This document shows positions 31,130 through 44,866 of a DNA stretch of 64,000 nucleotides, piece after piece. Source of the stretch: Salinisphaera japonica YTM-1 (GTDB taxonomy: Bacteria; Pseudomonadota; Gammaproteobacteria; Nevskiales; Salinisphaeraceae); the NCBI RefSeq assembly GCF_003788585.1, contig NZ_AYKG01000012.1, positions 1 through 64,000 of the forward strand, given 5' to 3'. A model generated the notes under the pieces. It was given only the letters and a program-made list of their open reading frames with translations, was not told the origin of the DNA and made no database searches. Position numbers and translations under genes: made by a program. The first letter of the stretch is position 1; every line of letters starts with the position of its first letter.

Positions 31130-31560
31130 AAACGATATTCCGTGGAACTCCAAGAGCGCGCAGTCCGGATGATCTTAGAACAACAAAGCGAGTACACCTC
31201 GAAGTGGGCAGCGATCGGCTCGATGGCGGCGGAATTCGGCTGCATACCCGAGCCATTGCGCCATTGAATCCGCCAGACTGAGCGCGAGATCAAAGAGCTG
31301 CGTCGTGCCAGCGAGATCCTGCGCAAGGCATCCGCCTAAATTCTCCAGGCGGAGCTCGACCGCCAAGGCATGTGATGGTCGACTGCATTCATCATCAACG
31401 CGACGTCTACGGTGACGAGTCGATTTGCAAGATTTGCCGATCCTGTCGTCTACGTACTATCGCGTTAAAACCGAACAAATCGAGCTAGCGCGGGGCAGAA
31501 CGTCGCGCAAAACGCGGTGCGATCAACGCCAAACACCGCACAGTGACCCTACTCGGCGAG
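31130..31560 (+). mobile_element. IS3-family insertion sequence remnant
   Basis: Plus-strand translation gives RYSVELQERAVRMILEQ and KWAAIGSMAAEFGC, then after a stop EIKELRRASEILRKASA. These are the start and end of IS3-type OrfA with the middle deleted. Next, pieces of OrfB follow (CIHHQRDVYGDESICK, SSTYYRVKTEQIELARG) with stops and frame changes. No start codon or full transposase remains. It ends where the damaged nuoN copy begins near 31568. The bases 30925-31130 hold no gene. Confidence 0.8.
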
Positions 31561-34662: not shown

Positions 34663-36495
34663 TCAATTAGTGGGCGCACCGGCAGCCTGCCAGGCCGCCC
34701 ATCCCCCAAAATCCGTGATATCGACGACGTCGTGGCGATCGAGCGCGGCACCGGCCTCGCAGATGAAGCCGGTATGCCACTGGCCGTCGGCGAGCTCGAC
34801 CTTGCCAAGGCCAAGCGGCGCGGGGATATCGGCTAGGAAGCTTCCGACATGAGCCATGGGCAGGCGCCAGACCTCGATGGCGATAGCCGCGCCTTCGGCA
34901 TCACGAACCAGCGCCGGGCGCGGCGGCTGATCGGCCGTCATGGCCTTCAGTCGATAGCCCGACGCGGTCCTCCCCGCATGGATACATACGCCCCCACGCG
35001 CAACGAGCTGGTAATTGAGCGCCAGGCCGCTCAGATGGGCCCCGCAAACCACAATATCCAAGCTGCCATGACGTGCTGGCGTAAGCCCCGGCAACGGCTC
35101 ATGGGGCCTACCCGTCGCCCCGAGTGGCAAACCACAGGCATCATCGAGCACACGAGCCGCGCTCAGCAGACGCAAATCCTCGAACGCCGCGCCAAATAAT
35201 GTGACCCCGGCCGGCATGCCCGTATCACTGAAGGTTACCGGAACGGCCAGCGCGCTGTAGTCGAGCAGATTCATGAAATTGGTCCATCTACCCAAGCGCG
35301 TGTTGAGAGTGACAGGTTCGGCGCTCACTTCGGCCTTGGTCGGATGACAGACCGTAGTGGGGGCAACGACAAAATCCACCGTGGCCAGCGCCTGGTCGGC
35401 TAGATGCTTGCATTCAGCCAGACGATACATGGCATCAAAGGCCTCGACGGCACTCGGCTTGGCTCCGCCCTGAATGATCTTACGCGTAACCGGATGAAAG
35501 ACATCGGGCTCGCGTTCAAGCAATGAGCCAACCGCATGATAACGCTCGGCCAGCCAAGGCCCACCGTAGAGCAGCGCCGCTGCATCGAGCATCGGTTGGC
35601 AGTCGATGGTGATGGCCTGGCCGCCGGCCGTCTCGAGCGTCGCCACAGCACGTTCCATCGCGCGGGTGTAAGCGGTTTCGGTCTGCCATTGGGATCGTGG
35701 CGGCACACCGAAAACGAAACCCGGCGCGATCTGGCCATAGCGTTGGCCGGCGGCCTCGAAACCGTGTGACCGGGCCTGTGCACAATCCACATCGTAATCG
35801 GCCGCAACCGAAAAGATGGTGTTCGCGTCGTCGGCGGTGAGCGCGAACAGGCTGATCGTATCCAGGCTTTTACAGGCCGGCACGACCCCAGCGCTGCTCA
35901 ACAGTCCCAGGCTCGGCTTGACGCCGAACAGGTTATTAAACGCGGCCGGTACGCGGCCCGAACCGGCTGTATCGGTACCCAATGCGAAAGATACCTGGCC
36001 CGCCGCCGTAACCACCGCGGAGCCACTGCTCGAGCCGCCGGGAATATAGTCTGCGTCAAAGGCATTGCCGGGCGTGCCGTACTCGGCCATTGCCCGCTCA
36101 CCCACTAGACCGGTGGCAAATTGGTCGAGATTGGTCTTGCCCATCGGTATCGCCCCGGCCGCGATCAAGCGCTCAACGACGTAGGCATGGCGCTCTGGCG
36201 TATAAGCGTAGGCCGAGCAGCCGGCAGTCGTCGGCACCCCCGCCAGATCGATATTGTCCTTGATCGCAAACGGTAGGCCATATAGCGGCAGATCGTCGGG
36301 CGAATGCCTGGCCAGAGCGGCAAGGTAAGGCGCAAGTTCGACGCGCGAAAGCCGATAGATCCAGCTGGCATCGCGCTCCACCTCGTCGCTAGTCGCCAAT
36401 AACGCGTCGATGACTTCTTCAGGGCATGTATCACCGCGGCGATAGGCCGCGTGCAAGGCGCTGCGGGTCAGTGAATCAGTTTTATGATAGGTCAT
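34663..36495 (-). CDS. atzF: Allophanate hydrolase
   Basis: Hydrolyses allophanate to ammonia and CO2, the last step of this operon's pathway. It has 610 residues. The amidase-signature domain shows the Ser-cisSer-Lys triad: Lys in PFAIKDNIDLAG, Ser in PGGSSSGSAVV and the nucleophile in TDTAGSGRVPA. The extra C-terminal domain (from about 480; VVCGAHLSGLALNYQL, WHTGFICE, DITDFGGWAAW) is the AtzF-specific decarboxylation domain. MTYHKTDSL is chosen as the start; an upstream ATG at 36549 would overlap the carboxylase by 11 bases. Last gene of the riboswitch operon. Confidence 0.93.
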   Translation of the reverse strand: MTYHKTDSLTRSALHAAYRRGDTCPEEVIDALLATSDEVERDASWIYRLSRVELAPYLAALARHSPDDLPLYGLPFAIKDNIDLAGVPTTAGCSAYAYTPERHAYVVERLIAAGAIPMGKTNLDQFATGLVGERAMAEYGTPGNAFDADYIPGGSSSGSAVVTAAGQVSFALGTDTAGSGRVPAAFNNLFGVKPSLGLLSSAGVVPACKSLDTISLFALTADDANTIFSVAADYDVDCAQARSHGFEAAGQRYGQIAPGFVFGVPPRSQWQTETAYTRAMERAVATLETAGGQAITIDCQPMLDAAALLYGGPWLAERYHAVGSLLEREPDVFHPVTRKIIQGGAKPSAVEAFDAMYRLAECKHLADQALATVDFVVAPTTVCHPTKAEVSAEPVTLNTRLGRWTNFMNLLDYSALAVPVTFSDTGMPAGVTLFGAAFEDLRLLSAARVLDDACGLPLGATGRPHEPLPGLTPARHGSLDIVVCGAHLSGLALNYQLVARGGVCIHAGRTASGYRLKAMTADQPPRPALVRDAEGAAIAIEVWRLPMAHVGSFLADIPAPLGLGKVELADGQWHTGFICEAGAALDRHDVVDITDFGGWAAWQAAGAPTN

Positions 36496-36538
36496 GTTAA
36501 GCAGCCTGTCGGGAACCCGGGGGGGGATACGGGCGTCG

Positions 36539-39500
36539 TCACTGGCCATCGGCCAATACGATAATTGGCTGGCCAGCCGTTACCGCCCCACCTTCTACGA
36601 TCGGCAACCGAGCGACCCGTCCGGCCCGACGGGCCACGACTTCTATCTCCATTTTCATAGACTCGACGAGAGCCACGCGCTGGCCGGCGGAAACGTCGTC
36701 GCCTTCGCCGATCTCCAGTTTCCATAAGCTGCCGGACACAGGACTGTCGATCGCAATCTCATCGGCGCCAAGCGCCGTGCTTTGGCTGGCCTCGGGGGTA
36801 TGGTCCTCGAATGTGAACTGGCCGTTGGCCCGCCAGCGCGCCATCTCCTCGGCGAATGCCGCATCGCGACGGGCCGTGAACGCGTCGATATCGTCCTGAC
36901 GGGTTTCCAGAAACGCTTCGTGTTCGGCCAGAGAAAACTGCGTTTTTTCCATATCCAGCGCGAAGCGGCCCTGCGGGAAATCGGCGCGGATCTGCATCAG
37001 CTCCTCGTGGCTGACTTCATAGAAACACAGCTGGTCGAAAAACCGCAGTAGCCACGGATTATCGAAATAGCGGGTCTTTCGATACCGATTCCACATCTGC
37101 AACGTCCGGCCCACGAACTGATACCCGCCAGGGCCCTCCATGCCGTAGACACAGAGATAAGCACCACCGATGCCGACCGAGTTTTCGGCCGTCCAGGTAC
37201 GTGCCGGGTTGTATTTCGTTGTGACCAGGCGCTTCGTCGGGTCCAGCGGCGTGGCCACCGGCGCGCCGAGATAGACATCGCCCAGGCCCATCACCAGATA
37301 GCGCGCGTTAAAGACCACGTCGCGGATATCCTCATGGCTGTCCAAGCCGTTAATGCGTTTAATGAAATCCAGGTTACTCGGACACCAAGGCGCATCCGGG
37401 CGCACGCTGCGCTGGTATTTGTCGATCGCTTCTTGGCAGGCCGGGTCATCCCAGGACAGTGGCAGATGCACCACGCGAGACTCGACGACCAGATCCTCGA
37501 CGTTATCGAGTTCCTGTGCGGCCTGGCCCAGATGGGCCAGCAGAGCAGCCTGTGACAATCGCGCCGGATCGTAATGGATCTGCAGTGAGCGAATGCCCGG
37601 CGTGAGTTCGGCAACGCCTGCCAGGGGGTGCTCCTGGAGCCAGAGCATCCATGCATGGGCGCGAAAACGCAGGCCAATGGCCAGCTGCATCGCGCCGAAC
37701 TCGATGAGCAGGAAATCGTCCCCGGCGCGGCGGTAGACGATACGGTCATCCGGGTCGTCGGCTTCGCGCGTCGCGATGACCGGATCATCGCGTTCGGCGC
37801 GCAGCGGCTCTTGCTGCACCGGAGCGAGATCGGCCAAAACCTGCTCCTGCGCCTGTTCCAGCGCCCGGGCACGCGCCAGCGCGATCGGTACGAAACGTAC
37901 ACGATCACCGGCGGCAAGTTGGCCCAGCTTCCAACGCTCGGCCCGGACCGTGGTGGCCGGGCAGACGAACCCCCCCAGTGACGGCCCATCCGGCCCGAGA
38001 ATCACGGGCATATCACCGGTGAAATCGATGGTGCCAAAAGCATAAGCATTGTCGTGGATATTCGACGGATGCAGCCCGGCCTCGCCGCCGTCTTCACGCG
38101 CCCATTCGGGCCGCGGTCCGATTAAGCGCACACCGGTGCGGCTCGAGTTGAAGTGCACCTCCCAATCGGCAGCGAAAATCGTATCGATATCGTCGTCGGT
38201 GAAAAAATCAGGCGCCCCGTGGGGGCCGTAAAGCACACCAATTTCCCAGCGCCGCCCACCATCGTCGTCGCTGTCTTGCCCAAAGCTCGGGACCAGCGAC
38301 GGTGCAAGCGTACGCGCTGACACCGGCGCATGCTTGGCCAAAGCAAGAACATCCCCGCCCCGCAAGGCCCGGCCGGCATGGCCGCCGAACTGGCCCAGGG
38401 TAAAAGTCGATCTAGAGCCTAGATACACCGGGCAGTCGATACCGCCTGCGACCAGTAGATAGGCACGTGCCCCGCCGCCGCTGACACGTCCGCAGTCGAG
38501 TACGCTACCCGCGGCCACATCGAGCACCGTCCAACCTGTAACTGCTTCACCGTCGAGGGTAGCAGCCAGCGTGGCACCGGCCAGCACGATCTGGGTCGCG
38601 CGGTTGAAACACAGCTGCGGCCCGGTGAGAGTGATTTCCAACCCGGCCGCATCGGCCGGATTGTCCAACAGCCGGTTGCCCAGCCGAAACGACCAATCAT
38701 CGAACGGCCCAGACGGCGGTACGCCGACATCCCAAACGCCGGTACGCCCCGGCACATCCTGGATCGTGGTCATCGTGCCGCTATCCAGCACATCGATGGT
38801 CGGCGGCGCCCAGGACAGATCCGCCAGCCAACGGGTATGAAAATCAGCCGTCGCAAATCGCGTGTCGGCCAGTACATAGGACAGCCAGCTACGGTTGGTC
38901 TGGATACCATAGAGCCGGGTCGCGTTCAGCGTATCCACCAGGCCGGTGGTCGCTTCGTCTCGATTGACGTCGTGGACAATAATTTTGGCCAGCATGGGAT
39001 CAAACAGTGGCGATACTTCAAGGCCCGCCTCGATCGAATGATCGATTCGCAGCCCAGGCGCGGTAGGAAAAACGACCTCGGTCAGCAACCCTGCACTGGG
39101 TCGAAAATCCTTGTGGGGATCTTCAGCATAAAGCCGTGCCTGGATAGCGTGCCCGCTCGGCACAAGCACTGCGGCTCGCGCGGCCAGATCGGGCAATTCA
39201 CCGGCCCCGAGTGCCAGCATCCACGCCACGATATCCACGCCCCAGACCATTTCGGTAACGCCATGCTCGACCTGCAGGCGCGTATTAACCTCGAGAAAAT
39301 AGAAACGCTGCCGGTTGGCGTCGTAGATGAACTCTACCGTGCCGGCGCTGCGATACGACACCGATTTACCGAGCGCGACCGCGGTCTGCAACAGCGCGTC
39401 TCGTACCGCTTCCGGTAGAGCCGGGGCCGGACATTCCTCGAGCACTTTCTGGTTACGACGCTGTGTCGAGCAATCACGCTCACCCAGAGCCACCACTTCG

Positions 39501-40153
39501 CCCTGCCCGTCACCAAACAGCTGAACTTCTAAATGCCGGGCTTTTTCGATATAGGCCTCGACGAACACACCGTCGTCGCCGAAATTACGCTGGCCCAGCC
39601 GACGCACGGAATCGAAAGCCCGTTCCAAACCCGCCTGGTCATGACAGACCTGCATACCGATACCGCCGCCGCCGGCGGTAGATTTGAGCATCACCGGATA
39701 ACCGATACGCTCTGCCTCACCCACTGCGGCAGCGGTATCGGCCAACAAACCTGAGCCGGGCACCAGGGGCACGCCAGCGTCCTCGGCGATACGCCTTGCT
39801 TCATGCTTCAAGCCAAAAGCGCGTACCTGTGCCGGGGTAGGACCCAAGAACACCAGACCAGCGGCTTCTGTATCGGCGATGAAGGCCTCGTTCTCGGAGA
39901 GAAAACCGTAGCCCGGATGAATCGCCTCGGCGCCGCATTCACGCGCAATGGCCAATATTTTTTCACTTGCGAGATAGGTATCAGCCGCGCTGCCCTCACC
40001 CAGGGAATAGGCTGCATCAGCCTGCTGCACAAATAGCGCATCGCGGTCGGCTTCGGCATACACCACGACAGCGGCGACCCCCAGTTCACGCAGCGTGCGC
40101 TGGATCCGCGTGGCGATCGCCCCGCGGTTAGCAATAAGAACTTTCTTGAACAT
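36539..40153 (-). CDS. uca: Urea carboxylase-family biotin enzyme, predicted guanidine carboxylase
   Basis: Protein of 1204 residues. A biotin carboxylase domain (1 to about 445; LIANRGAIATRI, AGGGGIGMQV, FLEVNTRLQVEHGVTEM) is followed by KipA- and KipI-like carboxyltransferase domains (about 470-1090; SRTGVRLIGP, ARYLVMGLGDVYLG). A biotinyl domain with VESMKME carries Lys1167. The family carboxylates urea, but bacterial members behind guanidine-I riboswitches prefer guanidine. Asn1022 in QMWN, where I recall Asp in fungal urea enzymes, agrees with that. The start at MFKKVLIANRG is chosen over an upstream ATG at 40195. Confidence 0.93.
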   Translation of the reverse strand: MFKKVLIANRGAIATRIQRTLRELGVAAVVVYAEADRDALFVQQADAAYSLGEGSAADTYLASEKILAIARECGAEAIHPGYGFLSENEAFIADTEAAGLVFLGPTPAQVRAFGLKHEARRIAEDAGVPLVPGSGLLADTAAAVGEAERIGYPVMLKSTAGGGGIGMQVCHDQAGLERAFDSVRRLGQRNFGDDGVFVEAYIEKARHLEVQLFGDGQGEVVALGERDCSTQRRNQKVLEECPAPALPEAVRDALLQTAVALGKSVSYRSAGTVEFIYDANRQRFYFLEVNTRLQVEHGVTEMVWGVDIVAWMLALGAGELPDLAARAAVLVPSGHAIQARLYAEDPHKDFRPSAGLLTEVVFPTAPGLRIDHSIEAGLEVSPLFDPMLAKIIVHDVNRDEATTGLVDTLNATRLYGIQTNRSWLSYVLADTRFATADFHTRWLADLSWAPPTIDVLDSGTMTTIQDVPGRTGVWDVGVPPSGPFDDWSFRLGNRLLDNPADAAGLEITLTGPQLCFNRATQIVLAGATLAATLDGEAVTGWTVLDVAAGSVLDCGRVSGGGARAYLLVAGGIDCPVYLGSRSTFTLGQFGGHAGRALRGGDVLALAKHAPVSARTLAPSLVPSFGQDSDDDGGRRWEIGVLYGPHGAPDFFTDDDIDTIFAADWEVHFNSSRTGVRLIGPRPEWAREDGGEAGLHPSNIHDNAYAFGTIDFTGDMPVILGPDGPSLGGFVCPATTVRAERWKLGQLAAGDRVRFVPIALARARALEQAQEQVLADLAPVQQEPLRAERDDPVIATREADDPDDRIVYRRAGDDFLLIEFGAMQLAIGLRFRAHAWMLWLQEHPLAGVAELTPGIRSLQIHYDPARLSQAALLAHLGQAAQELDNVEDLVVESRVVHLPLSWDDPACQEAIDKYQRSVRPDAPWCPSNLDFIKRINGLDSHEDIRDVVFNARYLVMGLGDVYLGAPVATPLDPTKRLVTTKYNPARTWTAENSVGIGGAYLCVYGMEGPGGYQFVGRTLQMWNRYRKTRYFDNPWLLRFFDQLCFYEVSHEELMQIRADFPQGRFALDMEKTQFSLAEHEAFLETRQDDIDAFTARRDAAFAEEMARWRANGQFTFEDHTPEASQSTALGADEIAIDSPVSGSLWKLEIGEGDDVSAGQRVALVESMKMEIEVVARRAGRVARLPIVEGGAVTAGQPIIVLADGQ

Positions 40154-40250
40154 GGCGACGTGACTACATCGATGCGGGTCGTCCCGCGGAGGCATACGAC
40201 ATCACGGGTCGTCCCGTACGTCTGGACCAAGTTGATTCGAGTCTGGCGGC

Positions 40251-40889
40251 TCAGTCCCAGACCAGAATATCTAGCGGCGTGGGATTGAAACCGCTACAGG
40301 GGTTATTGAGCTGCGGGCAGTTGGAAATCAGCACCACAACATCCATCTCGGCCTGCATCTCCACGTACTTGCCTGGCGCCGACAGACCGTCATCGAAATA
40401 CAGTGCGCCGTCGGCAGTGACCGGCACGTTCATGAAGAAATTGATGTTGTGAGCGATATCACGTTTGTCGATGCCGTATTCAGGATGATTAGCAATCGCC
40501 AGCATCCAGTTGTCACGACAACTGTGCATATGTCGTTTTTCTAGGTCGTAGCGCACGGTGTTCGATTCGCTGGCACAGGCGCCGCCCAAAGTGTCGTGGC
40601 GCCCGACCGTATCGGCGGTGATCGTAAGCATCGGGTTGTTCAGATTCGAGCGCAGGGTCGAGCCGGTCGTCAGATACACCTGCGCTTGCTCACGTACGGT
40701 ATCCATGCAGCTATAGCGCTCGGCCGGATCGGCCAGATTGAAAAACAAGGTATCGGCGGCCTCGTTGCCCTCAACGTCCACCAAGCGGATCGTCTGTCCG
40801 GCACGAACCGGGCCGATGTAATGTTCACCCGCTGGAATACGATGCTGAAACACCGCGTTTTCAATGTGTTTGGTACTGCTGATCGTCAT
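40251..40889 (-). CDS. DUF1989 / urea amidolyase-associated protein 2, predicted carboxyguanidine deiminase subunit
   Basis: DUF1989 protein of 212 residues. EGNEAADTLFFNLADPAERYS (part), GGACASESNTVRYD and SNCPQLNNPCSGFNPTPLDI are typical, with Cys residues likely to bind metal. In guanidine degradation this protein and its paralogue form carboxyguanidine deiminase (CgdAB), which converts carboxyguanidine to allophanate; that assignment follows from operon context. The start at MTISSTKH has GGGAGCAAGAC just upstream. Confidence 0.85.
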   Translation of the reverse strand: MTISSTKHIENAVFQHRIPAGEHYIGPVRAGQTIRLVDVEGNEAADTLFFNLADPAERYSCMDTVREQAQVYLTTGSTLRSNLNNPMLTITADTVGRHDTLGGACASESNTVRYDLEKRHMHSCRDNWMLAIANHPEYGIDKRDIAHNINFFMNVPVTADGALYFDDGLSAPGKYVEMQAEMDVVVLISNCPQLNNPCSGFNPTPLDILVWD

Positions 40890-40914
40890 GTCTTGCTCCC
40901 TTGTCGGGCCGCGC

Positions 40915-41637
40915 TTAGGCAGCACCCAGGTGATACAGGCGATTGTTGGCAAAGCCGCGTGCGTTCTCGGCGCAGTGGCGATAACAGACATCGTCATCAC
41001 CCACGGGTGCGGCCGAGCCCAGTCCGATGGTTACGCCACGTTTGGGATAGTCCGCGGCCGGATCCAGCGGGTGTGGGCAGGTATGCAGCGCCACCAGCGT
41101 GTCCATCTCGAAGCGCAGCGTGAGTGAAGCACCGGCCTGGCAATGCCCAGGCACGTAAGACAGCCGGCCGTCGTCATCGGCCACGACCTTGCTGAACAGG
41201 TTCAGATTGGCCGCCAGATCTCGCGCGCCCAGCTCATACTTGGCCAATTCGATTAGAAAACTATCGTGGCCGGTCTGGGTGCGATCGTTCAGGGCATCCT
41301 GGAAACTGACCGGCTGCCAGCCTTTTTCGATCATGTGGGCCGCGTGCAAATTACCGCCTACGCTGTCGTGCCAACCGAGGTCGTCGGCGACGATCGAGGC
41401 GAATATTCGTCCCATGTCCGAAAACAGACAGTGGCCGGTCGTGAGCTTGAACGTATGCTGAGCCTTGAGCGTGTCCGGCAGGCTCAAGCGTTCGAGCAGG
41501 TTTTCCGGGTTGTAAAAGAGCATGCTGACGTTGGTATCGGCGGCCTCGGCGCTAAGCGTCATCGTGGTGCCGCGGCGCAGGCGAAGCGACCAATGCTGGC
41601 CGCCGGGCAGAAATGTTTGATAATCGAAATCAGCCAT
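40915..41637 (-). CDS. DUF1989 / urea amidolyase-associated protein 1, predicted carboxyguanidine deiminase subunit
   Basis: Paralogue of the preceding DUF1989 protein, 240 residues. GQHWSLRLRRGTTM, ADTNVSMLFYNPENLLERL (part), HDSVGGNLHAAHMIE and TCPHPLDPAADYPKRGV mark the family. It is predicted to form the heteromeric deiminase with its neighbour. The gap between the two genes is 25 bases and it starts 3 bases after the ABC ATPase stop. Confidence 0.85.
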   Translation of the reverse strand: MADFDYQTFLPGGQHWSLRLRRGTTMTLSAEAADTNVSMLFYNPENLLERLSLPDTLKAQHTFKLTTGHCLFSDMGRIFASIVADDLGWHDSVGGNLHAAHMIEKGWQPVSFQDALNDRTQTGHDSFLIELAKYELGARDLAANLNLFSKVVADDDGRLSYVPGHCQAGASLTLRFEMDTLVALHTCPHPLDPAADYPKRGVTIGLGSAAPVGDDDVCYRHCAENARGFANNRLYHLGAA

Positions 41638-41640
41638 GGT

Positions 41641-42438
41641 TCAGACCTCTTCGGTTGCAGGGTGTGTAGCCGAGGCGCCGCGTGCCAGCGTGGCCGCCGC
41701 TGCCGCCTTCATGTCGCGGTTGCGATCCACGTCTAGATCGTAGGTAATCGTCGCACCGTAGGCATTCGGCGCCTGGGGATCGTGTCGAACCTTGTCGAAC
41801 ACCCAGACCCGCGTGCCTAGCGAAAAGGCCTCTTCCAGGTCATGGGTGATCATGAACACAGTCAGCCCCAGCTCTTTCCAGAGCCGGGTGATCAGCTCGT
41901 GCATATCGCCTCGGATGCCGGGATCAAGCGCCCCAAATGGCTCATCCAATAGCAGGATGCGCGGACGCATCATTAGCGCCTGGGCGATAGCAAGGCGCTG
42001 TTGCATGCCGCCAGACAGCTCGTGCGGGTATTTGTCCAACGCATCGTCTAGGCCGACCTCGCCAAGCCGTGCCACAGCTGCCTCGCGTGCCCGTCGGCGA
42101 CGCTTACCAAACAGCTTGCCCAGCACTGGCGCGCGCGCCAGCTCCTCGGCCATCATCACGTTGCCCAGCACGCTCAGGTGCGGAAACACCGAATATTTCT
42201 GGAACACGACGCCGCGGTCCGGGCCAGGTTCGCCCGGAATCGACGCGCCGTTGAGTGCCAGTTCGCCGGCCGAGAGGGCTTCGGTGCCCAGCAACATTTT
42301 TAGGAACGTGGTCTTACCGCATCCCGACGCCCCGACAACGGTGACGAACTCACCGGCCTCGACCGTGAAATTGAGCCGCTCGAGTACGACGTCGGTGCCG
42401 TAGTGTTTCTCGAGATTTTTTGCGTACACCAAGCTCAT
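41641..42438 (-). CDS. ABC transporter ATP-binding protein (NitT/TauT type)
   Basis: ATPase of 265 residues driving the importer. Walker A is VGASGCGKTTFL, the signature is ELSGGMQQRLAIAQAL, Walker B is ILLLDEPFGALDP and the switch His is in MITHDLEEA. The closest types serve nitrate, taurine or cyanate uptake, and context points to guanidine or urea. It overlaps the permease stop by 4 bases. Confidence 0.92.
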   Translation of the reverse strand: MSLVYAKNLEKHYGTDVVLERLNFTVEAGEFVTVVGASGCGKTTFLKMLLGTEALSAGELALNGASIPGEPGPDRGVVFQKYSVFPHLSVLGNVMMAEELARAPVLGKLFGKRRRRAREAAVARLGEVGLDDALDKYPHELSGGMQQRLAIAQALMMRPRILLLDEPFGALDPGIRGDMHELITRLWKELGLTVFMITHDLEEAFSLGTRVWVFDKVRHDPQAPNAYGATITYDLDVDRNRDMKAAAAATLARGASATHPATEEV

Positions 42439-43262
42439 GCCGAGGCCTGCTCATCCACGTGATACCAGCCGAACCACTTGCGCGAGATCAAATAAAGCGC
42501 GCGGTCGATGATGAAAGCCAACAACGTAATCCAGGCTACGTAGGGCAGGATCACGTCCATTGATAGATACCGCCGTACCAAGAAGATGCGATAACCCAGC
42601 CCTGACTGAGCGGCAATCGCCTCAGCCGCGATCAGGAACAGCCAGGCACTGCCCAGTGCCAGCCGCGTGGTCGAGATCAAGCGCGGGGTCAGCTGGGGCA
42701 ACAACACGCGAATCAATACCTGCCACGAGTTTGCACCCAGCGTCTGTGCCTTGATGCGCTGCTCTTCGGGTAACCGCAAGGCCTCGCCCTGCAGATCGCG
42801 AATCAAAAACGGCGTGATGCCGATCACGATCAACGCGATCTTGGCCATCTCACCTGTGCCAAAAACAATGAACAGGATAGGCAAGATCGCCATGGGCGGA
42901 ATCAGTGAAACCACCGTGATGAGCGGCGAAAACGGAGCACGAAACAGCGGGATTCCGCCGCTTACCAGCCCGAATATCAGTGCTGCCGTGGCACTGATGG
43001 CAACGCCGATACCCAGACGTTGCAAGCTCGCGCGCGTGTCGGCCCAAAGCGCGATCTCGCCGCTACGCATATCGGCCTGGGTGGCCATGCGCGTCATTGT
43101 CTGGCTCATCTGCTCGGCGGTCGGAAAGAGCCGCTGGTTAGGATTGAACTCGGTCTTTTGATTGGCTATCGCGATATAGGCCGTAGCCAAGACAATGAAC
43201 GGCAATAACGCCAGCGCAATACGCAGACCACGCCCACCACGTAGATTGATCAACCGCTTCAT
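42435..43262 (-). CDS. ABC transporter permease (NitT/TauT type)
   Basis: Inner membrane subunit of 275 residues with about six helices. The EAA loop is recognisable (EALRLPEEQRIKAQTLGANSWQ, of which EAQTLGA-like contacts touch the ATPase). The start is MKRLINL at 43262, with GGGAG about 7 bases upstream; the longer frame to 43328 overlaps the binding-protein gene. Confidence 0.9.
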   Translation of the reverse strand: MKRLINLRGGRGLRIALALLPFIVLATAYIAIANQKTEFNPNQRLFPTAEQMSQTMTRMATQADMRSGEIALWADTRASLQRLGIGVAISATAALIFGLVSGGIPLFRAPFSPLITVVSLIPPMAILPILFIVFGTGEMAKIALIVIGITPFLIRDLQGEALRLPEEQRIKAQTLGANSWQVLIRVLLPQLTPRLISTTRLALGSAWLFLIAAEAIAAQSGLGYRIFLVRRYLSMDVILPYVAWITLLAFIIDRALYLISRKWFGWYHVDEQASA

Positions 43263-43287
43263 GACGGGCTCCCGGTGCGGGTATCGC

Positions 43288-44340
43288 TCACTTCGCCTGC
43301 TCAACGTGCGTCGTAAAGCGCGGATCAAAACGCAGCTTTATATTGCCGCGATTCCCGTAGACCCCCGCCGGCGTACGGATGCCGATCACGTCAGGCCCCG
43401 GTGCAGACGGCCCGAGCAGGCCTTGTTCGAAACTGAAACGGGCCACCTTCTTCATGGTGTCCAGCAGCTCGGGATCGGTCATCAGGGCCGCCGCATTGGC
43501 CGGGTCGGAGTACAGATGGGTTGCGGCCAGCTGTTTGCGATAGCCGGCCAGGTCGGTCCCGGCCGCTTCGGCCATGATCGACAGTGCCTTCGGATCGTCG
43601 GCTGCCATTTTGGCCATGGTTTCGTACCAGGCACCGGCCAGTGCCTTACCCAGATCCGGGTTGGCCTTGAGAACATCCGTGTTCACGATCGTCAAATCTA
43701 GAATTTCACGAGGAATCTGCTTGGAGCTGAAGATCATATTCGCCTCCGGCATATTCGAGATTACCGAAAGCTGTGGGTTCCACGTGACGGCAGCCGTGAC
43801 ATCCGGATTGGCGAAGGCTCCGACAATATCGGCATCTGCCGTATTGACCGGTGAAACATCACGCTGGCTCAACCCGACGCTTTCCAGTGCCCGCGACAAC
43901 AGATAGTCCGACACGCTGTACTGCACCAGATTGACCTGTCGGCCCCGGATATCTTTTAGCGAGCGAGCGTTCTTGAGCACCACCCCGTCGTTGCCGTTGG
44001 AATAGTCACCGAGAATAATCACGGTGGTATCGACCCCGCTGGCGGCTGGCAGCGTCAGCGCATCCATATTCGTAGCCGTCACGCCGTCGACGTTGCCCGA
44101 TGTGTACTGATTTATCGACTCGACGTAATCGTTGACTTGGACCAGATCGATATCGATGCCGTACTTATCTGCCCATTTGTCGACAACCCCCTGGCTGTCG
44201 GCATAGGCCCATGGCATCCAGCCAACGTATATCGACCAAGCGATACGAAAATCATCGCGTGCATGCTGTGCCATAGACACCGGCGATACGGCCAGAAGAA
44301 CGGTCGCGATAAAGAAGACAGACAGCTTTTTCACGGTCAT
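43288..44340 (-). CDS. ABC transporter periplasmic substrate-binding protein (NitT/TauT type), predicted guanidine binder
   Basis: Protein of 350 residues with a signal peptide (KKLSVFFIATVLLAVSPVSMA). The mature part, with IAWSIYVGWMPWAYA, VNDYVESINQYTSGNVDGV and SVSDYLLSRALESVG, is a NMT1/SsuA-like fold. It is the first gene downstream of the riboswitch, with TTGGAGG about 7 bases before the ATG. Substrate assignment rests on the riboswitch and the degradative genes that follow. Confidence 0.88.
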   Translation of the reverse strand: MTVKKLSVFFIATVLLAVSPVSMAQHARDDFRIAWSIYVGWMPWAYADSQGVVDKWADKYGIDIDLVQVNDYVESINQYTSGNVDGVTATNMDALTLPAASGVDTTVIILGDYSNGNDGVVLKNARSLKDIRGRQVNLVQYSVSDYLLSRALESVGLSQRDVSPVNTADADIVGAFANPDVTAAVTWNPQLSVISNMPEANMIFSSKQIPREILDLTIVNTDVLKANPDLGKALAGAWYETMAKMAADDPKALSIMAEAAGTDLAGYRKQLAATHLYSDPANAAALMTDPELLDTMKKVARFSFEQGLLGPSAPGPDVIGIRTPAGVYGNRGNIKLRFDPRFTTHVEQAK

Positions 44341-44364
44341 TGATGGCCTCCAAGGTCATCTTCG

Positions 44365-44420
44365 AATAAAAGCCGGAGGTATCGAGCACAGCACCCTGTG
44401 TCTGACCTCCCGGGCTTTTA
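44365..44420 (-). terminator. Riboswitch-controlled intrinsic terminator
   Basis: On the minus strand, AAAAGCCCGGGAGGT can pair with ACCTCCGGCTTTT across a loop of about 30 bases and is followed by ATT. The 5' arm is the same GCCCGGGAGGT that forms the conserved 3' part of the aptamer. Ligand binding should therefore block the terminator and turn the operon on. Confidence 0.8.
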
Positions 44421-44503
44421 TCCCGCCGTGTAACCGCCGCTGTCTCGCGTCCGGTCGATCGCTCTCGGTCCAGGCCCGGCGACTGCCAGCGGAACCCTAG
44501 CCA
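44405..44503 (-). ncRNA. Guanidine-I riboswitch (ykkC class) aptamer
   Basis: The minus strand carries the invariant blocks of the ykkC/guanidine-I aptamer in order: CTAGGGTTCCG (44500-44490), CCTGGACCGAGAG about 25 bases later, and ACACGGCGGGATAAAAGCCC then GGGAGGT at the 3' end. It lies 65 bases upstream of the binding-protein start, directly followed by the switchable terminator. It binds guanidinium and controls guanidine carboxylase and exporter genes in known cases. Confidence 0.95.
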
Positions 44504-44790: not shown

Positions 44791-44866
44791 GCGGCGGTAG
44801 CTCAGTTGGTAGAGCGCGACCCTCCCACGGTCGAGGTCGCGAGTTCGAATCTCGTCCGCCGCTCCA
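44791..44866 (+). tRNA. tRNA-Gly (anticodon CCC)
   Basis: Cloverleaf reads clearly: acceptor GCGGCGG pairs with CCGCCGC, D arm GCTC...GAGC, anticodon stem CGACC/GGTCG with loop CTCCCAC (anticodon CCC, reading GGG), T arm with TTCGAAT, discriminator T and encoded CCA. The interval 44504-44790 upstream shows no gene. The opposite strand carries the end of a lipoprotein frame that runs into this tRNA. Confidence 0.95.

Follow-up and report, generated by a model that had tools for sequence, protein, structure and literature searches.

A predicted guanidine-assimilation operon under two guanidine riboswitches in Salinisphaera japonica YTM-1

Organization of the locus

The window analyzed here, i.e. 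the whole stretch of 64,000 nucleotides from Salinisphaera japonica YTM-1, carries on its minus strand a compact series of genes for an ABC transporter, two DUF1989 proteins, a carboxylase and an allophanate hydrolase, together with two RNA aptamers (Table 1). The gene order binding protein, permease, ATPase, two DUF1989 proteins, carboxylase and AtzF had been proposed in a sequence-only reading of this DNA and is borne out by the NCBIfam and Pfam matches. Indeed, the five NCBIfam matches (TIGR03427, TIGR03425, TIGR03424, TIGR02712 and TIGR02713) all lie above the curated cut-offs; the pair TIGR03425 and TIGR03424, both falling into PF09347 (DUF1989), corresponds to a putative CgdAB, and TIGR02713 combined with the C-terminal domain PF21986 identifies the allophanate hydrolase. 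Some reading frames, among them that of the permease, extend beyond the likely starts retained in the table: that of cgdB is open from a GTG at 41000, the likely start being the ATG at 40889, and for the carboxylase the ATG at 40153, located 20 nt 3' of the P2 hairpin of the second aptamer, is preferred over the mechanical start of the reading frame at 40195.

Table 1. Features of the operon region, with positions numbered within the window
Feature	Position	Strand	Evidence and remarks
Guanidine-I (ykkC) aptamer, RF00442	44405..44511	-	Rfam 80.6 bits, gathering score 63
Predicted intrinsic terminator	44364..44423	-	5' arm formed by the Guanidine-I 3' end; 3' arm ACCUCCGGC, then UUUUAUU
ABC substrate-binding protein, putative guanidine binder	43288..44340	-	TIGR03427, 488.5 bits, cut-off 333.9
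ABC permease	42435..43262	-	PF00528; reading frame open from TTG 43328, likely start ATG 43262
ABC ATPase	41641..42438	-	PF00005
cgdA-like carboxyguanidine deiminase subunit (UAAP1, DUF1989)	40915..41637	-	TIGR03425, 284 bits, cut-off 205.95
cgdB-like carboxyguanidine deiminase subunit (UAAP2, DUF1989)	40251..40889	-	TIGR03424, 316.7 bits, cut-off 284.7
Guanidine-II (mini-ykkC) aptamer, RF01068, two ACGA-loop hairpins	40174..40220	-	36.0 bits, gathering score 32
Putative guanidine carboxylase gca, annotated as urea carboxylase	36539..40153	-	TIGR02712; Asp aligned with K. lactis Asn1330
Allophanate hydrolase atzF	34663..36549	-	TIGR02713 and PF21986 C-terminal domain

According to the coordinates of the reading frames, neighboring genes overlap, as gca and atzF do, or are separated by gaps within about 25 nt, the exception being the 97-nt gap between cgdB and gca. 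This spacing suggests that the genes form one transcript. Terminator-like sites were also detected by a simple pattern scan: within the operon the minus strand has 9 of them, and the scanned region has 16 over both strands, for 8.9 expected, so that transcription may also end internally. The pattern scan of the window region lists no sigma-70-like promoter upstream of Guanidine-I. The four solved relatives found for the TIGR03427 binding protein are named as taurine-, sulfonate- or nitrate-transport proteins; in the present context the ligand of the importer is probably guanidine. Among named sequences, the carboxylase is most closely related to those of four Salinisphaera loci and of a locus with the label Endozoicomonas, with 76–77% identity in the best segment.

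Outside the operon, Rfam places a divergent tRNA gene at 44791–44863 (+), and the corresponding end of the sister locus L089 has a tRNA-Gly(ccc). A recent insertion of the operon beside the tRNA was considered and is unlikely, L089 having relatives of both flanking neighbors as well as the tRNA-Gly. On the other side, an ALIL pseudoknot (RF01497, 58.6 bits), a frameshift signal of the IS3 type, lies at 31333–31448 (+); no NCBIfam match was found for the two reading frames adjoining it, and the region is possibly the remnant of an element.

Two predicted guanidine riboswitches

The sequence-only reading had placed a guanidine-I aptamer upstream of the binding-protein gene and proposed a covariance-model search, which is positive above the gathering score and covers the full model (1–107 of 107). 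The sequence-only reading was correct on the Guanidine-I aptamer and incomplete, the second switch, Guanidine-II in the cgdB-gca gap, having been missed. The score of the latter is modest (E 0.0016) but above the cut-off, and the two hairpins have the expected architecture with loops ACGA and ACGA. Each aptamer was found as a single match in the 3.26-Mb genome, with all 114 first-look candidates scored for Guanidine-I and 150 of 379 for Guanidine-II. Both would be expected to bind guanidine in YTM-1. They are separated by about 4 kb and do not form a tandem in the sense of a survey of tandem riboswitches, which is reported to have found no guanidine examples (PMC9481103).

The 3' end of Guanidine-I can pair alternatively with the 3' arm given in Table 1, ahead of UUUUAUU, in a hairpin that excludes the aptamer fold. 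The hairpin at this end comprises 11 pairs, a number reached in none of 30 shuffles, and the terminator-type structure has −32.5 kcal/mol in the folded region. A possible competing terminator is found by pair count in the window, though the z-score of the duplex is only −1.7 and the hairpin is absent from the terminator list of the simple pattern scan. Among 69 Guanidine-I copies, a clear competing terminator (at least 8 pairs, strict TTTT criterion) occurs in 17, compared with 3% of shuffles, and the duplex-energy test gave no copy (0/69) with z below −3; the G+C-rich end of the aptamer may mask an energy signal. Taken together, these predictions suggest a competing terminator in the window and in a minority of relatives only.

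Specificity residue of the carboxylase

The carboxylase of the window aligns over nearly its full length with the urea amidolyase of K. lactis (PDB 3va7, 5i8i), a member of the same enzyme family. In this alignment Asp724 (query numbering) faces Asn1330 of the yeast enzyme, and Asp973 faces Asp1584. According to a 2024 paper on the growth of comammox bacteria (PMC11410670), a guanidine carboxylase needs Asp at both positions, the first of which separates it from urea carboxylase. The TIGR02712 match together with both Asp residues thus corresponds to a guanidine carboxylase, and the enzyme is likely to prefer guanidine over urea. Over 81 carboxylases (80 loci and the window), the specificity position is Asp in 80 and Asn in one, and the second position is Asp in 81/81.

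We further analyzed the family in 17 genomes, of which 12 contain TIGR02712 above the cut-off, for a total of 16 matches; these genomes are related and hence do not represent independent events. Eleven matches are of the window's kind: each of the eleven carries Asp, is accompanied by cgdAB and has a Guanidine-II shortly upstream of gca, 22–26 positions before its matched part. The remaining five are Asn paralogues, with cgdAB in 0/5 of the fetched stretches and Guanidine-II, or indeed any guanidine aptamer, beside 0/5 of them. Four of these five share their genome with an Asp copy. In genome G006 the Asn paralogue is broken into two reading frames, and its contig also contains a Guanidine-I, about 37 kb away and adjoining an sbp gene; this Guanidine-I is on another contig than gca. 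The Asp copy of G009 is truncated at the end of its contig. Guanidine-I scores above the cut-off in 8 of the 11 Asp genomes. In the fetched loci of the other three, G004, G012 and G013, it was not found even at E up to 1, with Guanidine-II kept. Sub-cut-off matches lying away from any full-length carboxylase were obtained for Guanidine-II in G002 (28.7 bits) and for Guanidine-I in G016 (49.4 bits).

Two loci of congeneric genomes, L090 (G004) and L091 (G012), have Guanidine-II, and Guanidine-I was not found in them. Ahead of cgdA, L090 carries, among others, genes for a regulator of the GntR type, for two binding proteins resembling SsuA and for a hydrolase whose best resemblance is to the biuret hydrolase BiuH, with 256 bits and thus short of the cut-off of 370; L091 resembles it judging from the reading frames. 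These operons may be fed by a different nitrogen substrate.

Distribution of the switches among related loci

Using a hairpin-pair criterion, Guanidine-II was detected ahead of gca in 60 of the 81 loci. At least one Guanidine-I anywhere in the locus was recovered with a strict motif in 61 of 81; some of the 20 misses correspond to short contigs, others do not. When six chosen loci were scored against the Rfam gathering threshold, Guanidine-I was confirmed in five, all but L003, and Guanidine-II in four, the exceptions being L054 and L029. The published Vreelandella boliviensis locus (L019) served as a positive control, Rfam finding both switches at the corresponding places, in agreement with the publication.

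The single Asn carboxylase, L054, comes from a gammaproteobacterial MAG and has the urea-type residue despite a Guanidine-I (89.3 bits) and cgdAB. Its leader is identical to that of L116 of G189, probably the same genome, and its Guanidine-II is below the cut-off (30.7 bits as scored in L116), with the P2 loop 78 nt from the start. This locus possibly represents a switch of specificity within a guanidine operon.

A further arrangement, with two Guanidine-I motifs per locus and no Guanidine-II pair before gca, is seen in nine loci (L029, L034, L042, L050, L053, L058, L059, L069 and L077), all named Marinobacter. Relatives of the permease and the ATPase lie just behind the second Guanidine-I in eight of the nine, none being found in L058; Rfam confirmed both motifs in L029, the sole Marinobacter locus tested.

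The Shine-Dalgarno region of gca

Unmasking of the Shine-Dalgarno sequence by Guanidine-II has been proposed for gca (PMC12508155) and for a transporter gene of P. aeruginosa (PMC9561414). Over the 60 gca genes preceded by Guanidine-II, the best anti-Shine-Dalgarno pairing has a median of −3.1 kcal/mol and reaches −4.5 in 15/60, comparable with a shuffled sequence control (median −3.3, 32% reaching −4.5). The site is weak rather than absent, a purine element of three or four bases of the Shine-Dalgarno type being found in 43/60 leaders. In the same loci sbp has a median of −9.3, with 21 of the 24 measured genes reaching −4.5 (only 24 of 60 loci being measurable), and cgdA one of −7.4, with 48/58. 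For cgdB (2/9) and atzF (0/2) the start could be located in a small number of loci, and the query for cgdB began at a doubtful GTG; as these two genes also look weak, the weak site may not be special to gca. Strong sites (median −9.6, 19/21 at −4.5 or below) are seen at the 21 gca genes that lack a Guanidine-II pair, but these constitute a poor control, because many of the assigned starts overlap the conserved coding end of cgdB.

A second sample shares part of its members with the first, among them the window, and identical leaders occur; in this sample none of 9 gca genes with P2 at 22–33 nt reach −4.5. Genes for SMR-type exporters behind Guanidine-II are at −4.5 or below in 20/23 cases when selected by the size rule of the script and in 18/20 when selected by eye, most of these rows coming from one genus of one order. 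The by-eye set drops L128, L137 and L139, whose protein starts are unlike those of exporters, and its two misses are L131 and L123, the start of the latter having probably been placed too early. L130, assigned to the category other, is perhaps a truncated exporter, and L109, L114, L119 and L133, for which no hairpin pair was found in the second sample, were left uncounted. Genes for gca with a distant aptamer are mixed: −11.4 at 111 nt (L100), −0.1 at 78 nt (L116) and −8.3 at 76 nt (L120). In three other loci (L107, L112 and L118) Guanidine-II precedes genes for proteins of 324–334 residues that are neither carboxylases nor exporters and whose starts look alike by eye.

The distance from the P2 loop to the AUG is 21–36 nt in 56 of the 60 Guanidine-II gca loci. 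Comparing folding with and without enforcement of P1 and P2 gave mean start accessibilities of 0.445 and 0.448 over 58 loci, with 4 loci going up and 3 down; this is a weak test, the hairpins mostly forming without ligand and the kissing loops lying outside the scope of the folding programs. At the gca of the window a weak Shine-Dalgarno sequence is seen, and programs that do not cover kissing loops predict no change of accessibility. The contrast between gca, with its weak site, and the exporter and sbp genes, with mostly strong ones, is new within the open-access literature searched; simple unmasking of a Shine-Dalgarno sequence at gca would fit it poorly. One tentative explanation, to which we give rather low odds because of the weaknesses of sampling and start placement in this comparison, is that the carboxylase-linked Guanidine-II uses an expression platform unlike the exporter-linked one, with P2 at a near-fixed, similar distance and a weak Shine-Dalgarno sequence; the folded hairpins, lying at the rim of the ribosome footprint, or translational coupling with cgdB could then exert control, in place of the release of a strong Shine-Dalgarno sequence.

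Proposed pathway and alternatives

The locus is, with high confidence, a nitrogen-assimilation operon of the guanidine carboxylase type under two guanidine switches. Guanidine would be imported by the ABC transporter and carboxylated by Gca in a biotin- and ATP-dependent reaction, the product would be deiminated to allophanate by CgdAB, and AtzF would hydrolyze allophanate to ammonia and CO2. Guanidine-I at the head would set transcription, bound guanidine holding the 3' end of the aptamer and thereby blocking the adjoining terminator, and Guanidine-II would raise translation of gca and perhaps also of the overlapping atzF. Substrates in YTM-1 as well as direction and level of control are deduced here from sequence comparison. 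The proposal of the sequence-only reading that the carboxylase is a guanidine rather than a urea enzyme gains support from the Asp residue and from the family contrast (11/11 vs. 0/5), and its view of the operon as one for guanidine import and assimilation agrees well with the switches, the gene set, the specificity residue and the family control.

It is improbable that a substituted guanidine such as methylguanidine is the main substrate. In V. boliviensis, according to the publication (PMC12508155), Guanidine-II fails to discriminate methylguanidine and mgdHL lies in the same operon, and relatives of MgdH and MgdL occur near gca in 16 of the 81 loci, including that of the query itself. On the other hand, the same paper reports that Guanidine-I of V. 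boliviensis rejects methylguanidine in the tested range, and neither MgdH nor MgdL was found near the operon of the window. Moreover, MgdL was found neither in the whole YTM-1 genome nor in that of its sister G008 (87% complete), the same query finding it in the other five of seven genomes searched, hence in five of the six congeneric genomes chosen. On the basis of this whole-genome search, which covered MgdL, the prediction for YTM-1 is that this route serves guanidine and not methylguanidine.

Improbable as well is a true urea amidolyase operon, with a carboxylase acting on urea and with riboswitches that are incidental or serve detoxification: the NCBIfam names (urea carboxylase, and putative urea ABC transporter protein for the binding protein) and the Asn carboxylase in the operon of L054 would be in its favor, but we reject it on the specificity residue and on the control provided by the Asn paralogues of five family genomes, near which cgdAB and both riboswitches were not found, and no function in the degradation of urea is known for the two carboxyguanidine deiminase (DUF1989) genes.

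Relation to known systems and significance

The preferred reading, an operon for guanidine, has a close counterpart in the gca/mgdH operon of V. boliviensis LC1, which, as described in its publication, shows the same order with Guanidine-I at the head, three ABC genes, cgdA and cgdB, Guanidine-II before gca, and atzF. The two differ in that mgdH and mgdL separate gca from atzF in V. boliviensis, whereas in the window gca overlaps atzF and mgdHL was not found beside them. For that organism, in-line probing is reported to have given dissociation constants for both switches, the strain to grow on guanidine and the proteins of the operon to be induced; the same paper mentions similarly expanded operons in Salinisphaera and Vreelandella (Sinn et al. 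2025, PMC12508155). A review describes for three enterobacteria importer and deiminase genes with Guanidine-I, and carboxylase and allophanate hydrolase genes under Guanidine-II (PMC12186494); this layout of control is that of the window in bacteria of another order, the likeness being one of description only.

The dual-switch guanidine operon is therefore already published, and the window provides a further, ordinary example of it: one more well-supported "urea carboxylase" operon that is really for guanidine. The Asn paralogues within the same genus constitute a natural control and could help to correct the annotation of such enzymes as urea carboxylases. Finally, the weak Shine-Dalgarno sequence of gca makes the translational mechanism assumed for the carboxylase-linked Guanidine-II directly testable.
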